NCBI GenBank assembly: GCA_016872675.1
Contig: VGZG01000017.1
Span: forward strand, 1 to 53,720
Source of the DNA: Planctomycetota bacterium
GTDB taxonomy: Bacteria; Planctomycetota; UBA1135; UBA2386
DNA length: 53,720 nucleotides
Direction: 5' to 3'
Positions 30,918 to 47,883 of the stretch are shown here, one piece after another (positions within the stretch are counted from its first letter, which is position 1; the number at the start of each line of letters is the position of its first letter). The position numbers and the translations under genes were made by a program. The notes beneath the pieces are model-generated. The model did no database searches. It was not told the origin of the DNA and worked only from the letters and a program-made list of their open reading frames with translations.

Positions 30918-31886
30918 CTAGCCGATGCCGCGCTCGAGGCGCTTGCCGAGCAGGCGCAGGAACGCGCCGGCGGCGCTCGGCAAGCCAGCGCCAGCCATCG
31001 CGCCGACGTACTGGCCCCAGCACTGCCACTTCACGTACTGGATCGTCCACTTGAGCGCCGCGGTTTCCTCGTCCGGCGGCAAGCCGAGGCTGCGCACGTA
31101 GGCACAGTGCTCCTTGGTGCCGTGCTCGATCGCGCCTTTCAGGCACGCACGATCGGGGATGCCGACGAGGCCAAAGAGCTCGCGTAGGTTGCGATGGTCG
31201 CAGAACGTGCGCTTGCCTTCGGCCCAGGCTGAGCGGTCGTGGCTGTGCGTCACGGCGGCGCCGCCGTGGTGCGCCAGCGTCATGCCAGCGGCGATCGCAC
31301 GCTTGCCGAAGTAGACGTCCTCACCGAAGCGACGCGGGCCAAGCGGAAAGCGCTGCCATGCCGAGCGCCGCAGGCACGACGCGACATTGTCGAAGGCGCA
31401 GAGCATCAGCCGGTCGATCGGTTGCAGGTCGTCGAGCGACTTGCCGTCGGGCAGCCGCTTCTTGGTGACGCCATCGCCCCATCCCGGCCACCCGAGGATG
31501 CGCCGCTTCAGCACCGGTTGGCACTTCGCGCGCGGGATCTGGCGGCACCAGACGCCCGCGACCTGCGGGTCCTCGAACGGCGCCACCATCTTGGCCAGCC
31601 AATCGGTCCCCTGCAGCGTCGCGTCCTGCACTAGCAGGACGACATGCTCGCTGCTGGTCAGCGCGATGGCACGATCACGCGTCCCGCCGTGATCGAACTC
31701 GCGCTGCGGGATCGACGCGACGCGGAAGCCAGCGCGCTGCAACCGCTCGACCGTGCCGTCCGTCGAGCCGCTGTCGATCGCCTGTAACTCGTCGACCACA
31801 ACGCCCTTCTGCGCCAGGATCGCAGCCAAGACTTCGTCGAGCAGGGGGCCGGCGTTCCACGTCGGCATCACGAGGGCAATGGACAC
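30918..31886 (-). CDS. Family 2 glycosyltransferase, rhamnosyltransferase-like
   Basis: A 322-residue GT-A enzyme. The GTG at 31886 starts it as MSIALVMPTWNAGPLLDEVLAAI. Key segments are LQAIDSGSTDGTVERL, REFDHGGTRDRAI, which is characteristic of rhamnosyltransferase-like GT2 proteins, VVLLVQDATLQGTDWL and GEDVYFGKRAIAAG. There is no transmembrane helix, so it should be cytoplasmic or peripherally bound. The sugar is a guess from family resemblance, and no dTDP-rhamnose genes are in the window. It is divergent from the large fusion gene at 32033. Confidence 0.88.
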   Translation of the reverse strand: MSIALVMPTWNAGPLLDEVLAAILAQKGVVVDELQAIDSGSTDGTVERLQRAGFRVASIPQREFDHGGTRDRAIALTSSEHVVLLVQDATLQGTDWLAKMVAPFEDPQVAGVWCRQIPRAKCQPVLKRRILGWPGWGDGVTKKRLPDGKSLDDLQPIDRLMLCAFDNVASCLRRSAWQRFPLGPRRFGEDVYFGKRAIAAGMTLAHHGGAAVTHSHDRSAWAEGKRTFCDHRNLRELFGLVGIPDRACLKGAIEHGTKEHCAYVRSLGLPPDEETAALKWTIQYVKWQCWGQYVGAMAGAGLPSAAGAFLRLLGKRLERGIG

Positions 31887-32010
31887 GCCGCCATCTTGCC
31901 GGCCCGCAACCCCGCGTGCCACATGGGCTGGCGAGCGGCCTTCGGCCAGGTATCGCCGCCAACCGATGATGCCGTCGAAGGTTCCGCTGTCTCACCGCCC
32001 GTTACGGCAT

Positions 32011-32032: not shown

Positions 32033-35000
32033 ATGTCCGCCGCTCCGAATGAACCCTCGCCGCGCGAGGATGGATCGACCGTGCGTGTCGACCGCTCGGC
32101 CATCGATGCGGCGCGGCGTCGGCTCAATCGCCAGCTCCTCGGCTCCTGGACGGCGTGCACCGCGCCGCAGCGGCTGCTGGTCCTCGACGCCGCCGCCGGT
32201 CCGCGCCCATGCGAAGCCGGTTTCGGCGAGCCCCCGACGGACCTGACGGCACGCCTGGCTGCCGGGGAGTTGCCGCTGCCGCATTGCGGCGGCTGCGCGA
32301 TGTGGCTCGCCGACGAACTGTACGCTTCGACGCCAGCGCTCGCGGCGCACGGCGCACCCGGCATGAACGGCGTCGCGATCGTCGTGCGTCTGACGGCCGC
32401 GGCGCCCGCCCTGTCAACCGCGCTGCTGGCGACCCTCGACGCCGCACTACCGACGGCCGCGTCGCTGACGCTCGAAACCGCGCTGCCCATCGACGCCGAC
32501 GGCCCAGCGGCCGTGCGCGCCAGCGTGCGACGACTCGCGCCGGCCCTGCCGCTGACGCTGCGCACCGACGCCGTGGCCGTGCTGCGCGGCGCGGCGGCTG
32601 CAGGCCTCGGACTCGCCGCCATCGAGTGGCTCGCCACCGACGCCGACCAAGGCGCGCTCGACGCCGTTCGCGCCGCCGCCGCCGCCGGCGCCAAGGCGCG
32701 CGTGCGTCTGCTGCTAACGCCGACGTCCTGGCACCACCTTGAGCCGCTGGCGCGCGCCTGCGCCGCCCTTCGCCTGCCGCTGGCGCCAAGCGTGCTCGAC
32801 CACGCCGGCACGGCGCCGCTGGCCGCCCTGTCCACCGCCGACCTCCAGCTAGCCAAGCACGTGCTGCTCGCCGCCTGGACGCGCCTAGCCGGGCCGGAGC
32901 GGATCGAGTCGCTCGCCGAGGACGCCTTCAACGAAGTAACAGCGCAACTGCGCGCCCTGCTGCGCCGCGCGCTGGCTCGCCCAGCCGAGGACGCGACCGA
33001 CCGACCGCCACTCGCCATGCCGGCGCTGACGCACCCGTGGTGCGTCGAACCGACGTTTGCGCCGTGGTGGGCGACGACTTTGCTGCAACAAGGCGACCAC
33101 CCGGCGGTGCGTCGCTGGATCGCGGACCTGCTCAACGCGACGAATATCGACGAAGCGGTGAGTGCGCACGCCTGGCTGCGCGTGCTGCTGCAGCGCGAGG
33201 TCGCCAACCGCCGATGCGACAGGGCGCGCACGGCGCTGCGCCGCGCGTACGCGACGCCACGAGCGCACAAGGGACTAGCCCGCGCCGACGCCGCCTTCGC
33301 CAAGGCTGTCGACCTGTCGCCCTTCGGCGGCCCGTGGACCGAGCGCGTCGGCCTCGCGCCGAAGTCGGCGCGCAAGCCGCCGTTCACCGTCGGCAGGCGG
33401 CGCGCCGGCGCCAAGGACAAACCGCGCGTCACCGTGCTGATCCCGTCCTACAAACACGAGGCATACGTCAGCGACGCCATCCGCAGCGCGCTGGCGCAGC
33501 GCGGCGTCGCGCTGCGCGTGCTCGTCGTCGACGACCGCTCGCCCGATGGCACGGTGGCCGCCGCGCGCGCCGTCGCCGACCCGCGCGTCAAAGTGCGTGT
33601 GAACGCGCGCAACCTCGGACTCGGCAACTCGACGCTGGCGGCGCTGGCGGCGGTGACAACTCCGTACGTCGCGCTGCTCAACTCCGACGACCTCTTCCAC
33701 CCGGATCGCCTCGCGCGCTGCCTCGCCGCGCTCGACGCCGACGCCAGCGGGCAGGTGGTCGCGACCGGCATCTGTCTCGTCGATCGCGACGGCGGCGAGC
33801 TGAAGCCGGACTGCGTCAGCGACGTGCTGGACGGCCGCCTCATCTACGACTGGGTGCAGTGGTACCACCGCTCCGCGCCGACGGCCGCGGCCGCACAAGC
33901 CGATCTCTTCGGCGAGTTGCTCGAGCGCAACTTCCTGGTCACCAGCAGCAACCTCGTCGCGCGCACCGATTGGCTACGCGGCAAGTCCGCCGAGATGCAG
34001 AGCCTCAAGTACTGCCTCGACTGGCGCCTATTCCTCGCGGCCGCCGCGGAAGGCTCGCTGCGCCGGATCGACGAACCGCTGCTCGCCTACCGCCTGCACG
34101 AGGCGAACACGGTCTGGTTCGACCCCGAACGTCGCTGGTCGTACTACCTCGAAGTGCACCGCGTCGCTGCCGAGGCGCTCGGGCAAGCCGCAGCGTCGCC
34201 GCGCGCCGAATTGGCCGCGCTGTTGCGCGCAGTGGTCACCCACTGCGTCGCCAACACCGAAGTCGACGGTTACGGCCTGCTGCTGCACCGGCTCGTCGAC
34301 GCCGCCCGCCTCGACGCCGAGGCCGCCGACGATCCATCGGTCCGGGCATTTGTGCGCTTGCTCGAAGTCCGCGCGAAGCATAGCGCCGAGACGTCAGCCA
34401 ACGACGGCCGCCAGCAAGCGCTCGCCGCGCTGACCGAGGAGCAATGGCAAGCCGAGTGCGGCGAGCGCCGCTGGCTGCAGGGCTACTGCGAAGCGTTGGA
34501 GCGCCGCCTCGCCGAGTCGTGGGAGGAGCGCCGGCGCCTGGAAGCGGAGTTGTCCGATCGCAGCGCCGATGCGGCGCGGGCGCAGGAGGTGGCTTCGGCG
34601 CGGCAACAGCGCATCGACGCGCTGCAACGCGACATTGATGCGCTGCGCAGTAGCCTCGACACGGTCGACAAGCTGCAGAAACTTGTGAGCGAGCAGCTCG
34701 CGACGGTCCAACGCCAGCGTGACGAGGCCGTGCATCGGAGCGAAAGCGCGCAGGCGCGCGCCACGACCGCCGAGCGTAACCACGACACGCAGTTGCTGCG
34801 CGCTGAAGCGGCTGAGCAGGCCAAGGACGCACAGATCCACCGCGCCGAGCAAGCTGAGGGCCAGCGCGACGCGCAGCGCCTGCGCGCCGAAGCGGCTGAG
34901 CAGGCCAAGGACGCACAGATCCACCGCGCCGAGCAAGCTGAGGGCCAGCGCGACGCGCAACTAGCCCGCGCCGAGCAAGCTGAGGGCCAGCGCGACGCGC

Positions 35001-36625
35001 AACTAGCCCGCGCTGAGCAAGCTGAGGCAAGCGCGACGGCGTTGGCCGGCAACCTTGGGGTCGCACGCGCCCACGGTGACCAACTGACTCGCGAACTCGC
35101 TGCCGAGCGCGCGATCATCGCCGAACTAGCGCCGCGCGCCGCTTCGTTGAAGGGCGAACGCGACCGGCTGCTGCAAGACCTCGTCCGCACCGAAGCCGAG
35201 CGCGCGCGCCTGCAGGGCTCGCGCGAGTGGCGGTTCGGCAACTTCGTCTGGAACAAGATGCCTCTCGGATACCTCTCCCGTCGCGGCAAGAAGTGGCTGC
35301 GCCGTCTCACCGACCTGAAGGATCGCGCGCTGATGCGCACGCGGCGCCGGGCCGAGGGTGTCGCCGTCGTCGCTGCCTGCTGGGAGTGGCCGATCTACAG
35401 CCACACCTTCGTCTACCAGGAGATGATCGGCCTCACGCACATGGGGCTCGACGTCCGAATGTTCCACTGGAATCTCGGCGACATCGGCCAGCTGCACAAG
35501 GCATTCAGCTACCTCGCCGACCACCGCACCGAGCTGCAGCCGGTCTGGGAGAACCACGTCCGCGACAAGCAGCACTTCGAGCGCACGAGGCCCGGGCGCC
35601 TGCGCGCCTTCCTGGAGCTGGTGGCGCAGCGCACGGGCCGCCCAGTCGCAGAGTTAGAGACGGAGCCGCTGGTACTGCAGGGATGCACCTTCGCCCGCAT
35701 GGCGGAGCTCGCCGCCGCGAAGTACCTGCACAGCTACTTCTTCTACGACCAGTCGTTCATGGTCATGCAGGCGGCTTGGCTGCTCGGCATCCCGCGTGGC
35801 GTCTCCTGCTACGCCGACCACATGCTCGACGACTACCCGTTCAAGCTCGTCGGCCTGCAGGTGGAACTGGCCGACGTGATCGTCGCCACGAGCGCGCGCA
35901 TCAAGCACGAGTTGTCCGCCAAGTCGGGCGGCAAGCACGACGACAAGATCGTCGTCAAGCCAAACGGCGTCGACGGCGCGCGCTTCCCGGCCGTCGACCG
36001 CCCCGCGCGCCAGAAGGGCGACCGCTTCGAGGCGATTTCCATCTCGCGCATCGAGCCGAAGAAGGGCCTGACGTACCTCGTCGAGGCCGTCGCCGACCTG
36101 ACGCGCCGCGGGCACGACGTGGTCGTGCACGTCATCGGCAGCAAGGACATGCACAGCAAGGGCAGCCTCGAGTACGCCGAGGGCTTCGAGCGCCGCATCG
36201 CCGACCTGGGCATGCAGGAGCGCGTGATCCTGCACGGGATGAAGAAGCAGGAGGAACTGGCGCCGCTGCTGCAGCGCTCGCGCGCGTTCGTCGCTCCATA
36301 CGTCGAGATCGAGAATGGCGACAAGGACGGCATCCCGACGGCGATGCTCGAAGGTCTCGCCTCCGGCCTGCCGGTCGTCACCACCGATTCCGGCTCGATC
36401 CTCGAAGTCGTCGACAACGACGTCGAAGGCATCGTCGTGGCGCAGCGCGACGCCAAGGGCCTCGCCGACGCCTTCGAGCGGCTGATCACCGATCCGGCGC
36501 TCGAGCGCCGCATGGCCAAGGCCGCGCGCGGCCGCTTCGACCGCGAGTTCGACATCCGCGTCACCGAACGCCGGCTGCACGAGCGGGTCGCCGCCCTGGT
36601 GCGCGCCGTCGACAAGGCAAAATAG
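32033..36625 (+). CDS. 1530-residue fusion: SPASM-like region, GT2, coiled coil and GT4
   Basis: Four parts are visible. (a) Residues 35-300: a SPASM-like Cys set (Cys42, Cys60, Cys85, Cys88, the last two as HCGGCAMW) and then a segment that reads like a radical-SAM barrel but has no CxxxCxxC. (b) About 464-700: a GT-A domain with VTVLIPSYKHEAYVSDAI, VLVVDDRSPDGT and LLNSDDLFHPDRL. (c) About 800-1060: a long coiled coil whose core is built from 14-residue tandem repeats. (d) About 1106-1530: a GT-B domain with YSHTFVYQE, SISRIEPKKGLTYLVEAV and GIPTAMLEGLASGLPVVTT. Two catalytic domains on a rod suggest sequential sugar transfers. No transmembrane helix is seen. The GT4 gene at 36637 follows 11 nt later. 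Confidence 0.85.
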   Translation: MSAAPNEPSPREDGSTVRVDRSAIDAARRRLNRQLLGSWTACTAPQRLLVLDAAAGPRPCEAGFGEPPTDLTARLAAGELPLPHCGGCAMWLADELYASTPALAAHGAPGMNGVAIVVRLTAAAPALSTALLATLDAALPTAASLTLETALPIDADGPAAVRASVRRLAPALPLTLRTDAVAVLRGAAAAGLGLAAIEWLATDADQGALDAVRAAAAAGAKARVRLLLTPTSWHHLEPLARACAALRLPLAPSVLDHAGTAPLAALSTADLQLAKHVLLAAWTRLAGPERIESLAEDAFNEVTAQLRALLRRALARPAEDATDRPPLAMPALTHPWCVEPTFAPWWATTLLQQGDHPAVRRWIADLLNATNIDEAVSAHAWLRVLLQREVANRRCDRARTALRRAYATPRAHKGLARADAAFAKAVDLSPFGGPWTERVGLAPKSARKPPFTVGRRRAGAKDKPRVTVLIPSYKHEAYVSDAIRSALAQRGVALRVLVVDDRSPDGTVAAARAVADPRVKVRVNARNLGLGNSTLAALAAVTTPYVALLNSDDLFHPDRLARCLAALDADASGQVVATGICLVDRDGGELKPDCVSDVLDGRLIYDWVQWYHRSAPTAAAAQADLFGELLERNFLVTSSNLVARTDWLRGKSAEMQSLKYCLDWRLFLAAAAEGSLRRIDEPLLAYRLHEANTVWFDPERRWSYYLEVHRVAAEALGQAAASPRAELAALLRAVVTHCVANTEVDGYGLLLHRLVDAARLDAEAADDPSVRAFVRLLEVRAKHSAETSANDGRQQALAALTEEQWQAECGERRWLQGYCEALERRLAESWEERRRLEAELSDRSADAARAQEVASARQQRIDALQRDIDALRSSLDTVDKLQKLVSEQLATVQRQRDEAVHRSESAQARATTAERNHDTQLLRAEAAEQAKDAQIHRAEQAEGQRDAQRLRAEAAEQAKDAQIHRAEQAEGQRDAQLARAEQAEGQRDAQLARAEQAEASATALAGNLGVARAHGDQLTRELAAERAIIAELAPRAASLKGERDRLLQDLVRTEAERARLQGSREWRFGNFVWNKMPLGYLSRRGKKWLRRLTDLKDRALMRTRRRAEGVAVVAACWEWPIYSHTFVYQEMIGLTHMGLDVRMFHWNLGDIGQLHKAFSYLADHRTELQPVWENHVRDKQHFERTRPGRLRAFLELVAQRTGRPVAELETEPLVLQGCTFARMAELAAAKYLHSYFFYDQSFMVMQAAWLLGIPRGVSCYADHMLDDYPFKLVGLQVELADVIVATSARIKHELSAKSGGKHDDKIVVKPNGVDGARFPAVDRPARQKGDRFEAISISRIEPKKGLTYLVEAVADLTRRGHDVVVHVIGSKDMHSKGSLEYAEGFERRIADLGMQERVILHGMKKQEELAPLLQRSRAFVAPYVEIENGDKDGIPTAMLEGLASGLPVVTTDSGSILEVVDNDVEGIVVAQRDAKGLADAFERLITDPALERRMAKAARGRFDREFDIRVTERRLHERVAALVRAVDKAK
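34802..35030 (+). repeat. In-frame 84-bp and 42-bp tandem repeats encoding coiled-coil units
   Basis: An 84-bp unit (starting at 34802 and 34886) is duplicated almost perfectly. Its second half then recurs with 42-bp spacing at 34928, 34970 and 35012, the last one partial. Each 42-bp unit encodes 14 residues (two heptads) of the type RAEQAEGQRDAQLA. Confidence 0.9.
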
Positions 36626-36636
36626 GCGACCGCGCG

Positions 36637-37911
36637 ATGCGGCTGCTCTACGTCATCCACCAGTTCTTCCCCGACTGCCGCTCGGGGACCGAGCAGTACT
36701 GCTTGGCGCTGGCGCGTGCCGCCCGCGCCGCCGGCCACGAACCGACGGTGCTGTCGCTGCACTGGGACCACGACCGCGACTGGCCGACGATCCGCCTGTT
36801 CGAGCAGCCATACGACGGCCTGCGCGTGCTGAGGCTCAACCACTGGCGCCGCGTCAACGCCAACGACGTGCTGCGCGACTACCAGAACCGCCACCTCGAC
36901 GGTTGGTTCCGCACCGTGCTCAACGACGTGCGGCCCGACGCCGTGCACTTCATGCACCTGCGCCAGCTCGGTTCGCAGCTGATCGATGTCGCCAAGGCGG
37001 CCGGCGCGCGCACAGTCGTCAACCTGATGGACTTCTGGTTCCTGTGCCCGCGCTTCACGCTGCTGCGCGGCGACGGCAGCCTATGCGACGGGCCGCCCGA
37101 CGGCGGACTCGGCTGCGTGCGCTGCAACTATCCGGAGCTCGCCGGCGCCGAACCCGCCACCGGCGCGCCGATGCTTACCGACGACCCGCCGGCGCGTCTG
37201 CGCGCGCTGCTCGATCGCAAGGAAGCCAACCTGCGGGCGCTGGCGCGAGCCGACGCCGTCGTCGCGCCATCGCGGTTCCTTGCCAGCATGTTCGCGCGCA
37301 ACGGCTTCCCCGCCGACCGCGTCACCGTGGCGCCGTACGGCTTGCCGGCCGGGCGCGTCGCTCCGCGCCCGGTCGCGCGCCCGCGGACGCCACTGCGGCT
37401 CGCGTTCTGCGGCGTGCTGTCGCCGTGGAAGGCGCCGCACCTCGCAGTCGCCGCAGTGCGGTCCACCGCCGCCCCAGTGACGCTCACGCTGCACGGCAAC
37501 GCCGACGAACCGATGTTCGCCGACTACATCGCCGGCGTTCGCGCGGCGGCCGGCGGCGATCCGCGCATCGCCTTCGCGGGGCCGTACGGCGAGGAGCAGG
37601 CATCCGACGTGTTCGCCGGCATGGACGCGCTGGTCGTGCCGAGCACTTGGTACGAGAACACGCCCTTCGTCGTGCTGGAGGCGTTCGCCGCCGGCGTGCC
37701 GGTGATCGCATCGGACCTCGGCGGCCTGTCCGAGATCGTGCGCGACGGCGACAACGGCCTGCTGTTCCGTGCCGGCGACGCTGGCGCACTGCGCGCCGCG
37801 ATCGAACGGCTGTGCGGCGAGCCTGGCCTTTACGCGCGGTTGCGCCCGGCGCCGCCGCACGGCATCGACGCGGACTTCGCGCGCTTCTGCAGCCTCTACC
37901 GCGGCAACTGA
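36637..37911 (+). CDS. Family 4 glycosyltransferase with four-Cys insertion, paralogue of 25611
   Basis: A 424-residue GT-B enzyme starting MRLLYVIHQFFPDCRSGTEQY. It has the same architecture as the 25611 protein, including the insertion FWFLCPR, DGSLCDGPPDGGLGC and VRC with Cys137, Cys150, Cys160 and Cys163 at identical numbering. The C-terminal lobe has LAFCGVLSPWKAPHLAVAAV and VPSTWYENTPFVVLEAFAAGVPVIASDLGGLSEIV. It lies 11 nt after the 1530-residue fusion and is probably co-transcribed with it. Gene duplication within the island is the simplest origin. Confidence 0.92.
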   Translation: MRLLYVIHQFFPDCRSGTEQYCLALARAARAAGHEPTVLSLHWDHDRDWPTIRLFEQPYDGLRVLRLNHWRRVNANDVLRDYQNRHLDGWFRTVLNDVRPDAVHFMHLRQLGSQLIDVAKAAGARTVVNLMDFWFLCPRFTLLRGDGSLCDGPPDGGLGCVRCNYPELAGAEPATGAPMLTDDPPARLRALLDRKEANLRALARADAVVAPSRFLASMFARNGFPADRVTVAPYGLPAGRVAPRPVARPRTPLRLAFCGVLSPWKAPHLAVAAVRSTAAPVTLTLHGNADEPMFADYIAGVRAAAGGDPRIAFAGPYGEEQASDVFAGMDALVVPSTWYENTPFVVLEAFAAGVPVIASDLGGLSEIVRDGDNGLLFRAGDAGALRAAIERLCGEPGLYARLRPAPPHGIDADFARFCSLYRGN

Positions 37912-37933: not shown

Positions 37934-39304
37934 TCAGCCCTGGCGCGGGCCGAAGCCGAGCACCTGCTTCAGCGCGCCTACCCACGAGCGCCCGGAGCGC
38001 AGCTCGTCCTCGCGCAGGCGCAAGCGGCCGAGTTCCGACTCGGCCTTGGCGAGTCGCTGGCACAGGTCGGCCAAACTGCGCGCGGGCGCGGAGGCCAGCT
38101 TGCCGTCGAGGAACGCCTGATAGACGTCGACGCTTCGCCTGGCGATGGCGACGTCGGTGAGTCGCTTCTCTACCTCGGCGCGCGCGGCAGCGCCGCAGCG
38201 GGCGCGCAGGCCGTCGTCCTCGATCATGCGCTGCAGCGCCGCGACGAAGGCCGCCGGGTCGCCGTTCTTCGCCAGCAGGCCGGTGCGTTCGTGCTCGATC
38301 AGCTCCGGCATGCCGCCGCAGTCCGACGACACGATGGCGCGGCCGGCGGTCATCGCCTCGAGGCAGCTGTAGGGGCAGTTCTCCCACAGGCTCGGGATCA
38401 GGAAGATCGCGCTCTTCTTCAGGCATGCGCGCACCTCCGGCAGGCCGAGCTGGCCGAGGTAGAAGAAGCGCTGCTGCAGGCCATGGTCCTTCACCCACGG
38501 CAGGATGCGCTTCTCCATGTGGCCGAAGAGGTCGCGGCCGGCGAAGACGAACGCGATGTCGCGATAACGCGCGAGCGTGCCTTCCACCATCTTCTGCACG
38601 ATGTGGATGCCCTTGCGCTCCTCCATGCGGTTGGCGAAGAAGATCAGCTTCTTGTCCTTCGGCAGGCCGAAGCGCGCGTGCACGTCGATGCCCTCGTCGC
38701 GGTCGAACAGCGGCACATCGATGCCGTTGGGGATGACGTGGATCGGGTCGCGCTCGCCCATCTTCACGGTCACCTCGTCAGCCAGGAACCGGCTGCAAGA
38801 CGTCAGCACCTGCGCCTGGTTGATCGCCAGCTGCTCGGCAAACGCGGTCAGCACGCGGTCGATCTTGGGCGTGTCGTAGATGCCCATGATGAGCCGCGCC
38901 GGCGAGTGAAAGCGCACGGCCGTCGGAATCGACAGCATCGTCGTCGACACCATCGCGTCGGCGCCGCACTCGGGCGCCTCGACGAAGTCGAACGGCTTGC
39001 GAGCGTGCTCCTTCGCCAGCCCCTCGAAGGCGTCGGTCGCGGTTGTCACGCGGTTCTGGAACCACCACGCGCGCGCCTTGCGGGCGTTGTCCAGCATGCC
39101 GTTGACGCAGCCTTCGCGCTTGACGCGCGTGACCTTGACGCCCTCGTGCTCCGAGCGGAACACGCCAGGCTTCGTCGCGCCGGCGAAGACGTGCACGTCG
39201 TGGCCGATCTTGGCCAGCGCCCGCGCCTGGTAGTACGCGTACGTGCCGATGCCGCCGAAGCCCGTCTCGGGCGGATACTCGAAGCTCAGGATCGCGATGC
39301 GCAT
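37934..39304 (-). CDS. Family 4 glycosyltransferase
   Basis: A 456-residue GT-B enzyme from ATG 39304, MRIAILSFEYPPETGFGGIGTYAYYQARAL, the classic GT4 opening. It has HVIPNGIDVPLFDRD, LIFFANRMEERKGIHIVQKM and the active-site region WENCPYSCLEAMTAGRAIVSSDCGGMPELIEHERTG. A C-terminal extension of about 60 residues is helical (LADLCQRLAKAESELGRLRL) and may mediate association. It is the last gene of the ugd-uxs-galE operon, so its donor may be one of the UDP-sugars made by that operon, UDP-glucuronate, UDP-xylose or UDP-galactose. Confidence 0.92.
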   Translation of the reverse strand: MRIAILSFEYPPETGFGGIGTYAYYQARALAKIGHDVHVFAGATKPGVFRSEHEGVKVTRVKREGCVNGMLDNARKARAWWFQNRVTTATDAFEGLAKEHARKPFDFVEAPECGADAMVSTTMLSIPTAVRFHSPARLIMGIYDTPKIDRVLTAFAEQLAINQAQVLTSCSRFLADEVTVKMGERDPIHVIPNGIDVPLFDRDEGIDVHARFGLPKDKKLIFFANRMEERKGIHIVQKMVEGTLARYRDIAFVFAGRDLFGHMEKRILPWVKDHGLQQRFFYLGQLGLPEVRACLKKSAIFLIPSLWENCPYSCLEAMTAGRAIVSSDCGGMPELIEHERTGLLAKNGDPAAFVAALQRMIEDDGLRARCGAAARAEVEKRLTDVAIARRSVDVYQAFLDGKLASAPARSLADLCQRLAKAESELGRLRLREDELRSGRSWVGALKQVLGFGPRQG

Positions 39305-40366: not shown

Positions 40367-41353
40367 TCACTTGCGCACGTAGCCCTCGAAGTCGCGGTGC
40401 TCCTGCTTGTGGAGCACCTCCTTCGGCAGCGCCTTGAACGCTTCGTAGGTGATCTTGAGGCCCGCGGCGCGCGAGACCTTCGGCTCCCAGCCAAGAATCT
40501 TCTTGGCCTTGGTGATGTCCGGGCGGCGCTGCGTCGGGTCGTCCTTCGGCAGATCCTTGAAGACGATCTTCTGCTTGGTGCCGGTGAGCTTGATGATCTC
40601 CTCGGCGAACTGCAGGATCGTGATCTCGTCTGGGTTGCCGATGTTGACCGGGTACGGGTAATCGCTGTGCAGCAGACGGTAGATGCCCTCGACGAGGTCA
40701 TCGACGTAGCAGAACGACCTCGTCTGGCTGCCCTTGCCGAACACCGTCAGGTCCTCGCCGCGGATCGCCTGGCCGATGAACGCCGGCAGCACGCGGCCGT
40801 CGTTCAGCCGCATGCGCGGGCCATACGTGTTGAAGATGCGGATGATCCGCGTCTGCAACCCGTGATAGGTGTGATAGGCCATCGTCATGGCCTCCTGGAA
40901 GCGCTTGGCCTCGTCGTAGACGCCGCGCGGGCCGACCGGGTTGACGTTGCCCCAGTACTCTTCTGTCTGCGGGTGCATCGCCGGGTCGCCGTAGACCTCG
41001 GAGGTCGACGCCACCAGGATGCGCGCGTTCTTGGCCTTGGCGAGGCCGAGGCAGTTGTGCGTGCCGAGCGAGCCGACCTTCAGCGTCTGGATCGGGATCT
41101 TCAGGTAGTCGATCGGCGAGGCCGGCGACGCGAAGTGCAGGATGTAGTCGAGCGGCCCGGAGACGTGGATGAAGTTGCTGACGTCCTTGTCGTAGAACGT
41201 GAACTGCTTCAGCGGGAAGAGGTGGTCGAGGTTGCGCAGGTCGCCGGTGATGAGGTTGTCCATCCCCAGCACTTCGTAGCCTTCGCGAATGAAGCGGTCG
41301 CAGAGGTGCGAGCCAAGGAACCCGGCGGCGCCGGTGATCAAAATGCGAGGCAT
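40367..41353 (-). CDS. UDP-glucuronate decarboxylase (UDP-xylose synthase)
   Basis: A 328-residue extended [54 protein letters not shown] (YxxxK), [10 protein letters not shown] and [15 protein letters not shown]. The combination of [20 protein letters not shown] and YDEAKR is characteristic of UXS. It converts UDP-glucuronate from the upstream Ugd to UDP-xylose. A few bacterial relatives make UDP-apiose or other products, so the name is strong but not certain. It lies 19 nt after ugd and 10 nt before galE. Confidence 0.92.
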
Positions 41354-41372: not shown

Positions 41373-42686
41373 TCACTTCACGCCGATGCCATGGTACGCA
41401 AATCCCTGCGCGCGCAGTTCAAGCCCACTGTAGATGTTGCGGCCGTCGAACACGACTGGCTGCTTGAGCGACTTCTTGATGCGCGCCCAGTCGGGCACGC
41501 GGAATTCGCGCCACTCGGTGACCAGCAGCAGCGCGTCGGCGCCGGCGAGCGCCGCGTAGGCGTCCTTGGCGTAGCCGATGCGGTCGCCAATCATGTGCTT
41601 GCTCTCCTCGACCGCGACCGGGTCGTAGGCGGTCACCGTCGCGCCGGCCGCGAGCAGCTGCTCGCAGATCACCAGCGACGGCGCCTCGCGCATGTCGTTG
41701 GTCTCCGGCTTGAACGACAGGCCCCACATGGCGAAGTGGCGGCCCTTTAGCTGGCCGAAGTGCTTCTTCACCTTGGTGAAGAGCACGTGCTTCTGCGCCT
41801 CGTTGACGTCCTCGACCGACTGCAGGATGCGCAGCTGGTAGCCGTTCTCGACGCCGGTCTTGACCAGCGCCTTGACGTCCTTCGGGAAGCAGCTGCCGCC
41901 GTAGCCGATGCCAGGGTAGATGAAGCGGTTGCCGATGCGCGGGTCGCTGCCGATGCCCTTGCGCACCTGGTTGACGTCGGCGCCGAGCAGCTCGCAGAGG
42001 TTGGCGATGTCGTTCATGAACGAGATCTTGGTCGCCAGCATCGCGTTGGCCGCGTACTTGGTCATCTCCGCCGACGGCACGTCCATGAACAGCACCGGGT
42101 GGCCGTTGAGCGTGAACGGCTTGTAGAGCCGCGCCATGACATCGCGCGCGCGCTCGCTTTCGACGCCGCAGACAATGCGGTCGGGTTTCATGAAGTCGTC
42201 GATCGCCGCGCCCTCCTTGAGGAACTCGGGGTTGCTGGCGACGTCGAACTGCAGGCTCGACCCGCGCTTCTGTAGCGCCGCGGCGAGCTCCTTGCGCACC
42301 TTCTCGGCCGTTCCGACCGGCACCGTGCTCTTGGTGATGACGACGAGGTAGCCATCCATCGTCTCGCCGATCTCGCGCGCGACGCCAAGCACGTAGCGCA
42401 GGTCGGCGCTGCCGTCCTCGCCCGGCGGCGTGCCGACGGCGATGAACGCTGCTTCGGCGCCCTTGATGGCGTCGGCGAGCTTGGTGGTGAACTGCAGGCG
42501 GCCCGACTTCGTGTTGCGCTCGACGATGTCCTCGAGGCCCGGTTCGTAGATCGGGAGGACGCCCTTCTGCAGGTTGGCGATCTTCTGCGCGTTGACGTCC
42601 ACGCAAGTCACATTCATGCCCACGTCCGCGAGGCAGGAGCCCGTGACGAGGCCGACATAGCCGGTACCGACGACGGCAATCTTCAT
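41373..42686 (-). CDS. ugd: UDP-glucose 6-dehydrogenase
   Basis: A 437-residue enzyme from ATG 42686. N-terminal NAD-binding [50 protein letters not shown] and the catalytic Cys in [16 protein letters not shown] are all present, plus C-terminal [15 protein letters not shown]. It oxidises UDP-glucose to UDP-glucuronate with two NAD+. It is the first gene of the minus-strand operon ugd-uxs-galE-GT4. A 26-bp palindrome lies 78 bp upstream of its start, between it and the divergent reductase gene. Confidence 0.97.
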
Positions 42687-42764
42687 GATGGCGATTCGTT
42701 CTTGGAGCGATGACGCGCAGGGGGCGCGCGTCGGCGTTCTCATCGGCAAGCCGGGTCGTCTACG

Positions 42765-42790
42765 GTGAGCAGAAACCGGTTTCCGGTCAC
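42765..42790. promoter_or_regulatory. 26-bp imperfect palindrome upstream of ugd
   Basis: Eleven of 13 positions pair across the dyad, with the perfect core AAACCGGTTT and outer arms GTGA/TCAC. It lies in the 267-bp divergent region between ugd and the ferredoxin reductase gene. A GC hairpin (42794-42811) is adjacent. It is a candidate operator for the polysaccharide operon. Confidence 0.6.
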
Positions 42791-42941
42791 CGCGCCGCGC
42801 ACACGCGCGGCCCCCCGTTGGCAAAGAGGTCGCGTCCTTCTAGCCCTCGCTGCGGAATTGGTCTACCGGCCTCGCGCGCATACGCCGTGACCGGATGCAG
42901 GCGCGGGCGTGACGGCCAACGACACCACGCTGGCCGGCGTC

Positions 42942-45654: not shown

Positions 45655-47883
45655 ATGTTCGCCGGCCTCACACTCGCCGTCCGCTGCACGACCGTCGTCG
45701 GCTTGGCCGCTCTGACCGCTGCCCCGCTCGCCGGCCAGCAGCGCCGCGATTCCGCGGCCAAGCAAGCGAGCCACACGCGCATGGTGCAGGAACTCGCCGC
45801 AATCGCCGAGCGCAGCGTCCGCGACCACAAGTACCACGGCGACGACGCCGCGAAGGCGCTGTGGGCAGAGATGGCGCAACTCGGCGACAAGGCGCCGTGG
45901 AAGCTGCGGCTCGACGGCGCGCTCGCGCACCTGCGCCTGGGCGCGACGCGCGAGGGCATCGCCATCCTGCAGGCCGCCGACGACGCGCTGGTCGCCAAGC
46001 GCATCGACGGCGACGTCGACGCGCGCAACAGCGTGCGCTTCTACCTCGGCATGGCGTGGCTGCGTCTCGCCGAGAACGAGAACTGCTGCGCCCGCAACGC
46101 GCCGGAGAGCTGCATCCTGCCGCTGCGCGACGCGGCGCTGCACACTGCCGCGCCGGAGGGCGCGACCAACGCGATCCCGTGGTTCGAGGCGGTGATCGCC
46201 AATACGCCAAAGGGCGACTACTGGCAGCTGTCGTCGATCTGGCTGCTCAACCTCGCGCACATGGCGCTCGACCAGTGGCCCGATGGCGTGCCGGCCGCGC
46301 ATCGGCTGCCCGCGAGCACGTTCACGTCGTCGACGTCGTTTCCGGCATTCCCCAACGTCGCCGGTCGCGTCGGCCTCGACACGTTCGGCATGCTCGGCGG
46401 CGTCATCGTCGACGACTTCGACGGCGACCTCGACCTCGACCTGATGGTCTCGCTGTGGAGCGCGGCGGGCCAGCTGCGCTATCTGCGCAACGACGGCGAT
46501 GGTCGCTTCACCGACCGCACCGACGCCGCCGGCCTGCGCGGCATCATCAGCGGCATCAACCTGATCCAGGCCGACTACGACAACGACGGCGACCTCGACG
46601 CCTTCGTCAGCCGCGGCGCGTGGCTGTACGACGGCGGCCGCCATCCCAACTCGCTGCTGCAGAATCAGGGCGACGGCACGTTCCTCGACGTGACGTTCGC
46701 GGCCGGCCTCGGCGAGGTCCACTTTCCGACGTCGACCGCCGACTGGGGCGACGTCGACGGCGACGGCGACCTCGACCTGTACGTCGGCAACGAGGCGTCG
46801 GCCAAGATCGCCGCGCCTTGCCAGCTGTTTCGCAACGAGGGCGACGGCACGTTCTTCGACATCGCCGACCGCGCCGGCGTGCAGAACCTCGGCTACACCA
46901 AGGGCGTCGCGTTCGGCGACTACGACGACGACGGCCGCCTCGACCTCTACGTCAGCAACCTGCACGAGCCCAACCGCCTGTACCGCAACGCCGGCAACGG
47001 CCGCTTCGTCGACATGGCCCCGAAGCTCGGCATGCACGAGCCGGTCGAGAGCTTCGGCGCGTGGTTCTGGGACGTCGACAATGACGGCGCGCTCGACCTG
47101 TTCTGCGCCGCCTACAGCACCGGCATCGGCGACATCGCCGCCGCGCAGCTCGGCGTCCCGCGCCCGCACCCCGACCGCATGCGGCTGTGGCGCGGCGACG
47201 GCAAGGGCGGCTTCACCGAGGTCGGCAAGGCTATGGGCCTCGACGTGCCGGCGCTGCCGATGGGCGCCAACTTCGGCGACCTCGACAACGACGGCTTCCT
47301 CGACGTCCACCTCGGCACCGGCGACCCGTACTATTACTCACTGATGCCCAACCTCGTGTTCAAGAACGACGGCGGCACGCGCTTCGTCGACGTCACCATG
47401 GCCGGCGGCTTCGGCCACCTGCAGAAGGGCCACGGCTGCGCCTTTGCCGACCTCGACGCCGACGGCGACCTCGACCTCTTCAGCATCCAGGGCGGCGCCT
47501 ACCCGGGCGACGCGGCGCACGACGCGCTGTACGAGAACCCCGGCTTCGGCAACCACTGGCTCGGTGTGCTCGCCGAAGGCCGCGACAGCAACCGCTCGGC
47601 GATCGGCGCGCGGCTGCGCGTCGTGTTCGACGAGAACGGCGTCGAACGCTCGGTCTGGCGCGACGTCGGCAGCGGTGGGTGCTTCGGCGCCAACCCGCTG
47701 CGGCAGCATCTCGGCCTCGGCAAGGCGACGGCGCTGAAGCGCCTGGAAGTCCGCTGGCCGAAGTCCGGCGCGACGCAGACGCTGCGCGATCTGCCGATCG
47801 ACGCCACGATCCGCGTCGTCGAGGGCCAGGACGGGTTCGTCAAGCTCGAACTACCGCAGACGATGTTGGGCGGCGCAAAGTGA
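45655..47883 (+). CDS. Secreted CRTAC1-like protein (FG-GAP repeats plus ASPIC/UnbV domain)
   Basis: A 742-residue exported protein with signal peptide (MFAGLTLAVRCTTVVGLAALTAAPLAGQ). Residues 30-220 are helical, TPR-like, and contain the paired-Cys segment NENCCARNAPESCILPL often found in these proteins. FG-GAP/VCBS loops follow (DDFDGDLDLD, DYDNDGDLD, DVDGDGDLD, DYDDDGRLD, DVDNDGALD, DLDNDGFLD and DLDADGDLD), predicting a calcium-bound beta-propeller. The ASPIC/UnbV domain (about 625-710) has NHWLGVLAEG, RSAIGARLRV and LGLGKATALKRLEVRWPKSG. Such proteins are abundant in Planctomycetes, but their role is unsettled; binding of polymers or surfaces is the usual suggestion. Confidence 0.93.
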   Translation: MFAGLTLAVRCTTVVGLAALTAAPLAGQQRRDSAAKQASHTRMVQELAAIAERSVRDHKYHGDDAAKALWAEMAQLGDKAPWKLRLDGALAHLRLGATREGIAILQAADDALVAKRIDGDVDARNSVRFYLGMAWLRLAENENCCARNAPESCILPLRDAALHTAAPEGATNAIPWFEAVIANTPKGDYWQLSSIWLLNLAHMALDQWPDGVPAAHRLPASTFTSSTSFPAFPNVAGRVGLDTFGMLGGVIVDDFDGDLDLDLMVSLWSAAGQLRYLRNDGDGRFTDRTDAAGLRGIISGINLIQADYDNDGDLDAFVSRGAWLYDGGRHPNSLLQNQGDGTFLDVTFAAGLGEVHFPTSTADWGDVDGDGDLDLYVGNEASAKIAAPCQLFRNEGDGTFFDIADRAGVQNLGYTKGVAFGDYDDDGRLDLYVSNLHEPNRLYRNAGNGRFVDMAPKLGMHEPVESFGAWFWDVDNDGALDLFCAAYSTGIGDIAAAQLGVPRPHPDRMRLWRGDGKGGFTEVGKAMGLDVPALPMGANFGDLDNDGFLDVHLGTGDPYYYSLMPNLVFKNDGGTRFVDVTMAGGFGHLQKGHGCAFADLDADGDLDLFSIQGGAYPGDAAHDALYENPGFGNHWLGVLAEGRDSNRSAIGARLRVVFDENGVERSVWRDVGSGGCFGANPLRQHLGLGKATALKRLEVRWPKSGATQTLRDLPIDATIRVVEGQDGFVKLELPQTMLGGAK

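Follow-up and report, generated by a model that had tools for sequence, protein, structure and literature searches.

Twitch and SPASM auxiliary clusters are normally discussed as helpers of radical reactions (PMC9012708, in excerpt), and coiled-coil rulers have been described that separate a chain terminator from polymerase modules (PMC11231755, in excerpt). Here we describe a planctomycete gene that carries a twitch domain and a long rod in one protein, together with two glycosyltransferase domains. The gene lies on the + strand at 32033..36625 of the window, by which we mean the whole stretch of 53,720 nucleotides that was analysed, and encodes 1530 amino acids in the order twitch, pseudo-radical-SAM barrel, helical module, GT2, rod and GT4. 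Codon-position composition is coding-like along 32033-36625, with GC3 of 0.78-0.97 per 90-codon block, and both the 1530-residue reading frame and the positions of Cys42, 60, 85 and 88 given in a first-pass annotation of the sequence proved correct. That annotation identified the parts correctly, and their combination is indeed unusual; the end of the barrel near residue 255, the separate helical module that follows it, and a GT4 domain in the twitch-barrel slot of a sister clade are new. A literature search, which covered titles and the starts of abstracts and had most subscription journals outside its scope, returned no such fusion and no degenerate radical-SAM module on a glycosyltransferase. 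The combination of parts was thus not found described, and absence from the literature is no proof of novelty.

The fusion gene is surrounded by other genes for sugar transfer and sugar-nucleotide metabolism. A GT2 gene (gE, 30918..31922, - strand) is its divergent neighbour, and a separate GT4 gene (gF, 36637..37911, + strand) lies directly downstream, followed by a further GT4 gene (gG, 37934..39304, - strand), an NDP-sugar epimerase/dehydratase gene (gH, 40367..41353, - strand) and a UDP-glucose 6-dehydrogenase-like gene (gI, 41373..42824, - strand). These additional GT2 and GT4 genes, together with the epimerase/dehydratase and dehydrogenase-like genes, identify the region as a polysaccharide locus. 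An FG-GAP repeat protein with an ASPIC/UnbV domain is encoded near it, at 45655-47883.

Protein searches with residues 1-456 gave matches in 24 of 61 genomes, the window's genome included; all 24 fall within the window's own family (f1, 34 genomes), and none of the 27 other genomes of the order matched. The sample examined consisted of the full stretches around 20 homologous genes, and in 16 of them one open frame extends through GT2 and rod to GT4, starting in the N-terminal region or at a contig end. Three of the other four (L029, L032, L041) are cut by contig ends and the fourth, L036, is frame-broken in the rod region. The possibility that L036 (5286-9870) simply has no GT4 was rejected, as GT4 homology resumes in another frame inside the rod region. 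Two stretches were present in duplicate (L026 = L030, L027 = L040), and each was counted once in the locus counts. The first of these, the L030 contig sequence as it occurs in genome G002, is labelled Candidatus Kuenenia stuttgartiensis, a doubtful label; G002 is placed in the genus of the window's genome. Profile A1, built from 20 rows of the N-terminal region, was then run against 392 genomes of the phylum. Apart from those in the window's own family, its full-length matches came from four genomes of family f71, and the remaining matches listed cover the twitch part only. A search with the GT2 region yielded a further relative in family f6 (L145). The GT4 domain was seen in four of the five relatives L109-L112 and L145, and was not seen in L112 at E 1e-10. 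Since the same part order recurs in one family, a second family and one genome of a third, the fusion cannot be put down to an error in the assembly of this contig, and the homologues of like domain order that the first-pass annotation had suggested looking for do exist, in three families.

The twitch, or half-SPASM, domain occupies residues 40-92 (32150..32308, + strand), with the arrangement Cys42-x17-Cys60-x24-Cys85-x2-Cys88. All four cysteines are present in the 18 f1 sequences with a readable twitch stretch, the window included (L042, truncated at its contig end, lies outside this count), and in all five further relatives (L109-L112, L145), giving 23 of 23 readable sequences overall. Across the 18 f1 sequences the spacing is C-x15-17-C-x24-46-C-x2-C, that of the five others not having been tabulated. 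The second spacer is x24 in the window, compared with x32-46 in 16 of the 18, the window and its closest relative (L029) having the shortest, and in the window this spacer is without the AWxG-type segment present in most relatives. The remaining N-terminal cysteines are variable, with Cys243 found in 14, Cys337 in nine and Cys395 in two of 21 sequences. A chance occurrence of the four cysteines was rejected on their conservation (23/23). The claim of a SPASM-like four-Cys set was therefore upheld, both by this conservation among homologues and by a twitch match at the profile level.

Kinship of the N-terminal region is visible only through the family profile, and not in direct scans of the window protein. 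When the 20 members were scanned singly, eight matched PF13186 (SPASM; E up to 10, best 8.3e-7) and nine matched NF033640 (N_Twi_rSAM; E up to 10, best 9.7e-5), and in a genome scan one relative (L035/G031) scored above the SPASM cut-off, at 33.7 versus 21.5 bits. In the two members listed for NF033640, scores were far below its cut-off of 170 bits (L034, 15.9 bits over profile positions 2-74; L033, 10.6 bits over 2-70). The window protein had no Pfam match to SPASM or radical-SAM even at E 10, and nothing before residue 460; an NCBIfam scan of its residues 1-476 gave a chance match only, and phmmer against the PDB gave unrelated weak matches only. Five of the 20 members weakly matched TIGR04304, the model of GeoRSP-type SPASM proteins, which we take to be without an intact radical site and which may offer an earlier example of such a protein. 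The window's genome had no SPASM matches, versus 51 of the 61 genomes searched that had one, and the degenerate twitch of the fusion gene is the only SPASM trace found in it.

The four retained cysteines most likely bind one [4Fe-4S] cluster. Zinc, held for stabilisation of the fold and with no Fe-S cluster, is a doubtful alternative: four cysteines that include a CxxC pair could accommodate zinc, and selection for iron would ease once the radical site was gone, but the spacing and flanking motif fit twitch domains, in which the cluster is [4Fe-4S], and BtrN uses four cysteines for its cluster (PMC9012708, in excerpt), all of which align, weakly (E 0.63), with the four found here when the profile is compared with the PDB.

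Two relatives, L043 (6858-11381) and L048 (5971-10284), have kept the barrel, GT2, rod and GT4 and are missing the twitch. The upstream frames of both were checked for a twitch and none was found, so the idea that it is encoded there in another frame was rejected. The two are apart in a tree of GT2 sequences, and two separate twitch losses are likely. Because these proteins lost the twitch and kept the barrel, the metal site is not indispensable for the rest of the protein. This bears on the possibility that a four-Cys Fe-S cluster senses redox state or oxygen and gates GT2 activity, with the barrel transmitting the signal. Twitch clusters are redox-active according to the parts of PMC9012708 consulted, and it is hard to see what an all-Cys auxiliary cluster would catalyse once the radical site is gone, both of which would suit a sensor, but the loss of the twitch from L043 and L048, with retention of the rest, makes such gating an unlikely role for the module. 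Nor did a regulator or an oxygen-related gene tied to the locus come to light among the genes looked at.

The relationship of the barrel to radical-SAM proteins was evaluated by profile comparison. Profile A1 also finds the twitch/SPASM part of genuine, CxxxCxxC-bearing radical-SAM proteins of the same phylum, and a reference set of 11 proteins with a twitch before the radical-SAM domain was drawn from the radical-SAM matches of this analysis. Twitch and barrel together aligned with this set end to end, over 293 columns, with a score of 99.4 and a probability of 97.8%, and the order of twitch followed by barrel is the same in the family profile and in the reference proteins. The barrel alone scored 53.4 against the set, with at most 17.3 for 40 shuffled versions. 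Against 45 ordinary radical-SAM barrels it scored 41.6, compared with at most 16.3 for 60 column shuffles, 15.3 for the reversed barrel, and at most 20.1 for the GT2 and GT4 parts used as a control.

Structure prediction of the N-terminal region, which had been suggested as a check, gave a radical-SAM-type barrel. AlphaFold2 models of three sequences contain six strand-helix units at residues 114-253 (32372..32791, + strand), with pLDDT mostly 77-92, followed by helices; the predicted structure is a partial (beta/alpha)6 barrel of the radical-SAM superfamily (PF04055) kind. In both predictions the twitch part is modelled poorly, its pLDDT lying mostly at about 30-57, and the strand pair and helices that it places where they would be expected are suggestive only. 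With a second-look aligner, the top three rows for the window model were radical-SAM proteins (PqqE, Z 10.3; BlsE, 10.0; MoaA, 9.0), other TIM barrels following at Z 8.6 and below, and for the model of the relative L027 radical-SAM enzymes filled all of the top 26 rows, with Z from 10.5 down to 8.1, whereas the best row of another kind had 7.8. The least probable of all the readings weighed here is that the protein has some other TIM-barrel-like fold whose likeness to radical-SAM proteins is accidental. Foldseek found no match to the predicted models at E 0.001 or better, and other TIM barrels come close behind in the window model (Z 8.6 versus 9.0-10.3), but the profile controls and the 26 of 26 top rows for L027 weigh heavily against it, and a generic TIM barrel was rejected on the same controls and structure rows. 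By profile and by predicted fold, the N-terminal region is related to SPASM/radical-SAM proteins.

The first-pass annotation had a radical-SAM-like barrel without CxxxCxxC followed by GT2. The kinship and the absence of the motif stand, with the correction that the barrel covers only about residues 114-253. An interpretation of the entire region up to residue 450 as barrel was rejected because residues ~262-460 form a helical module that occurs without twitch and barrel. This module (residues 262-460; 32816..33412, + strand) lies immediately before the GT2 domain, including in relatives that have a GT4 in the N-terminal slot.

Loss of the radical site is uniform among the sequences scanned. 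Nothing in the family corresponds, in the 293-column alignment, to the CxxxCxxC loop of the templates. The motif was also absent from the region separating twitch and GT2 in the window protein and in 20 f1 homologues, from the 400 residues after the twitch in L109-L112 and L145, and from the reading frames of L080-L083. The N-terminal ~250 residues would accordingly represent a former N-terminal-twitch radical-SAM protein that has lost its radical-generating CxxxCxxC cluster. The four f71 genomes with the fusion (G174, G217, G252, G272) each also have an N-twitch radical-SAM gene, scoring 148-197 bits (cut-off 170), and such genes are a possible source of the module. A continuing part of the module in radical chemistry, with its auxiliary cluster serving a separate radical-SAM protein, is very unlikely. 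For PapB, electron transfer between molecules is reported, probably through an auxiliary cluster (PMC10470005, in excerpt), and the window's genome has 16 radical-SAM matches, but none of the 16 is on the window's contig, and a scan of 27 fusion stretches, two of which are duplicates, found no CxxxCx[FYWHML]C frame.

The remainder of the protein is well defined. The GT2 domain (residues 464-720; 33422..34192, + strand) scored 87.2 bits with PF00535 over residues 467-577 (cut-off 23.3), and the GT4 domain (residues 1112-1510; 35366..36562, + strand) scored 106.5 bits with PF00534 over residues 1327-1500 (cut-off 26.4), the nearest named models of the latter, EpsE and WcaL, both being far below cut-off. 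These scores bear out the proposed order of GT2, long rod and GT4 after the N-terminal region. Relatives having GT2 keep its LNSDD (MNSDD in one) and CLDW motifs, and those having GT4 keep its GDKDGIPTA stretch; from the retention of LNSDD and GDKDGIPTA both domains are probably active. Between them lies a long rod low in Pro and Gly (residues 821-1074; 34493..35254, + strand), a probable coiled coil that differs in length among relatives, the stretch between landmarks at residues 800 and 1110 ranging from 267 to 431 residues. Tandem repeats occupy 34796..35038 (+ strand) within the rod, with two copies of an 84-bp unit at 34796-34959 and 5.3 copies of a 42-bp unit at 34819-35038; the near-identity of the 84-bp copies (98%) suggests that the rod has recently changed in length. 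In 12 of the 17 sequences tested, periodicity in the heptad range was above the 95th percentile of shuffled versions, in the window barely (6.2 versus 6.0). Of the repeat-built coiled coil claimed earlier, the repeats were thus found, and the coiled-coil nature is moderately supported.

The GT2-region search also found relatives in genomes without an N-terminal match. In five of these proteins (L143, L144, L147, L148, L149) a GT4 domain comes before the helical module and GT2; for L143 this comes from reading of the sequence and not from a Pfam scan. In a GT2 tree of 31 rows, from which L032 was left out because it is cut by a contig end, these five and L146 lie on one side with support of 99/96, and the bearers of twitch or barrel on the other; L146, which is cut short, and L042 are in neither of the two architecture groups. 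When nine window genes were used as queries at 1e-25, gG was the only one to match L144, L147 and L148, and L143 was matched by gG and also, outside the fusion ORF, by gB and gD. The gG match lies inside the fusion ORF of L143, L147 and L148 at 47-49% identity, and the match in L144 has 28% identity; L149, despite its GT4 slot, had no gG match at 1e-25. A gG homologue occurs in 16 of the 24 loci of the twitch/barrel kind (L029-L048, L109-L112), and it is immediately upstream on the same strand in nine of the 24 (L044-L048, L109-L112). In seven of the eight loci without gG a contig end lies close to the gene; L031 has no such cut. L145, with twitch and barrel, had no gG match in its 10 kb.

Two observations, a gG-type GT4 fused in the sister clade and gG in the neighbourhood of the fusion gene, lead us to propose that gG docks on the module. 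The N-terminal region would be a radical-SAM pseudoenzyme that has kept its four auxiliary-site cysteines and serves as a docking and assembly module of a polysaccharide polymerase, a reading to which we give roughly even odds (about 0.5). The module would be a platform and no catalyst, holding the free-standing GT4 partner gG beside the GT2 domain, where the sister clade has a related GT4 covalently attached, and the rod would separate the GT2 and GT4 active sites of the polymerase. A tentative version, somewhat less probable, is that the pseudoenzyme has a live auxiliary Fe-S cluster and acts as a docking or redox-gating subunit in the slot of the sister lineage's third glycosyltransferase. 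It is improbable that the module instead binds the growing glycan, or a lipid or peptide acceptor, and feeds it to GT2; acceptor binding had been raised in the first-pass annotation. The module adjoins GT2, and twitch/SPASM radical-SAM enzymes act on sugars, nucleotides and peptides (BtrN, MoaA, PqqE; PMC9012708, in excerpt), but the sister-clade slot is filled by a GT4 domain and by no binding domain.

The fusion adds an unexpected type of module to multi-domain polysaccharide polymerases. In every twitch-bearing member seen, the radical site has been dropped and the auxiliary ligands kept, a natural separation of two functions that raises the question of how an auxiliary cluster is used on its own. 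The N-terminal module is a separable fragment in which this can be tested.

The closest described relative of the N-terminal part is the N_Twi_rSAM type (NF033640), which likewise has the twitch first and the barrel second, in an alignment of 293 columns through both; here, however, the CxxxCxxC is gone, the GGE-type stretch is not kept, and two glycosyltransferases are fused. BtrN resembles the protein in its four cysteines, which ligate a [4Fe-4S] cluster in that enzyme (PMC9012708, in excerpt) and align weakly with those found here, but in BtrN the twitch follows the barrel, whereas here it precedes it and there is no radical site. The planctomycete proteins with the order GT4, helical module and GT2 (L143, L144, L147, L148, L149) share a homologous helical module and GT2, and differ in having GT4 in the N-terminal slot, with twitch and barrel missing. 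In layout, the protein is similar to WbdD, WbbB and ORF6-O7 of O-polysaccharide assembly, in which a long coiled-coil-like rod lies between catalytic modules (PMC11231755, in excerpt). Its rod may act like these published rulers, although no terminator was recognised in the fusion protein: in place of the methyltransferase, kinase or Kdo transferase terminator of those systems, it carries a pseudo-radical-SAM module.
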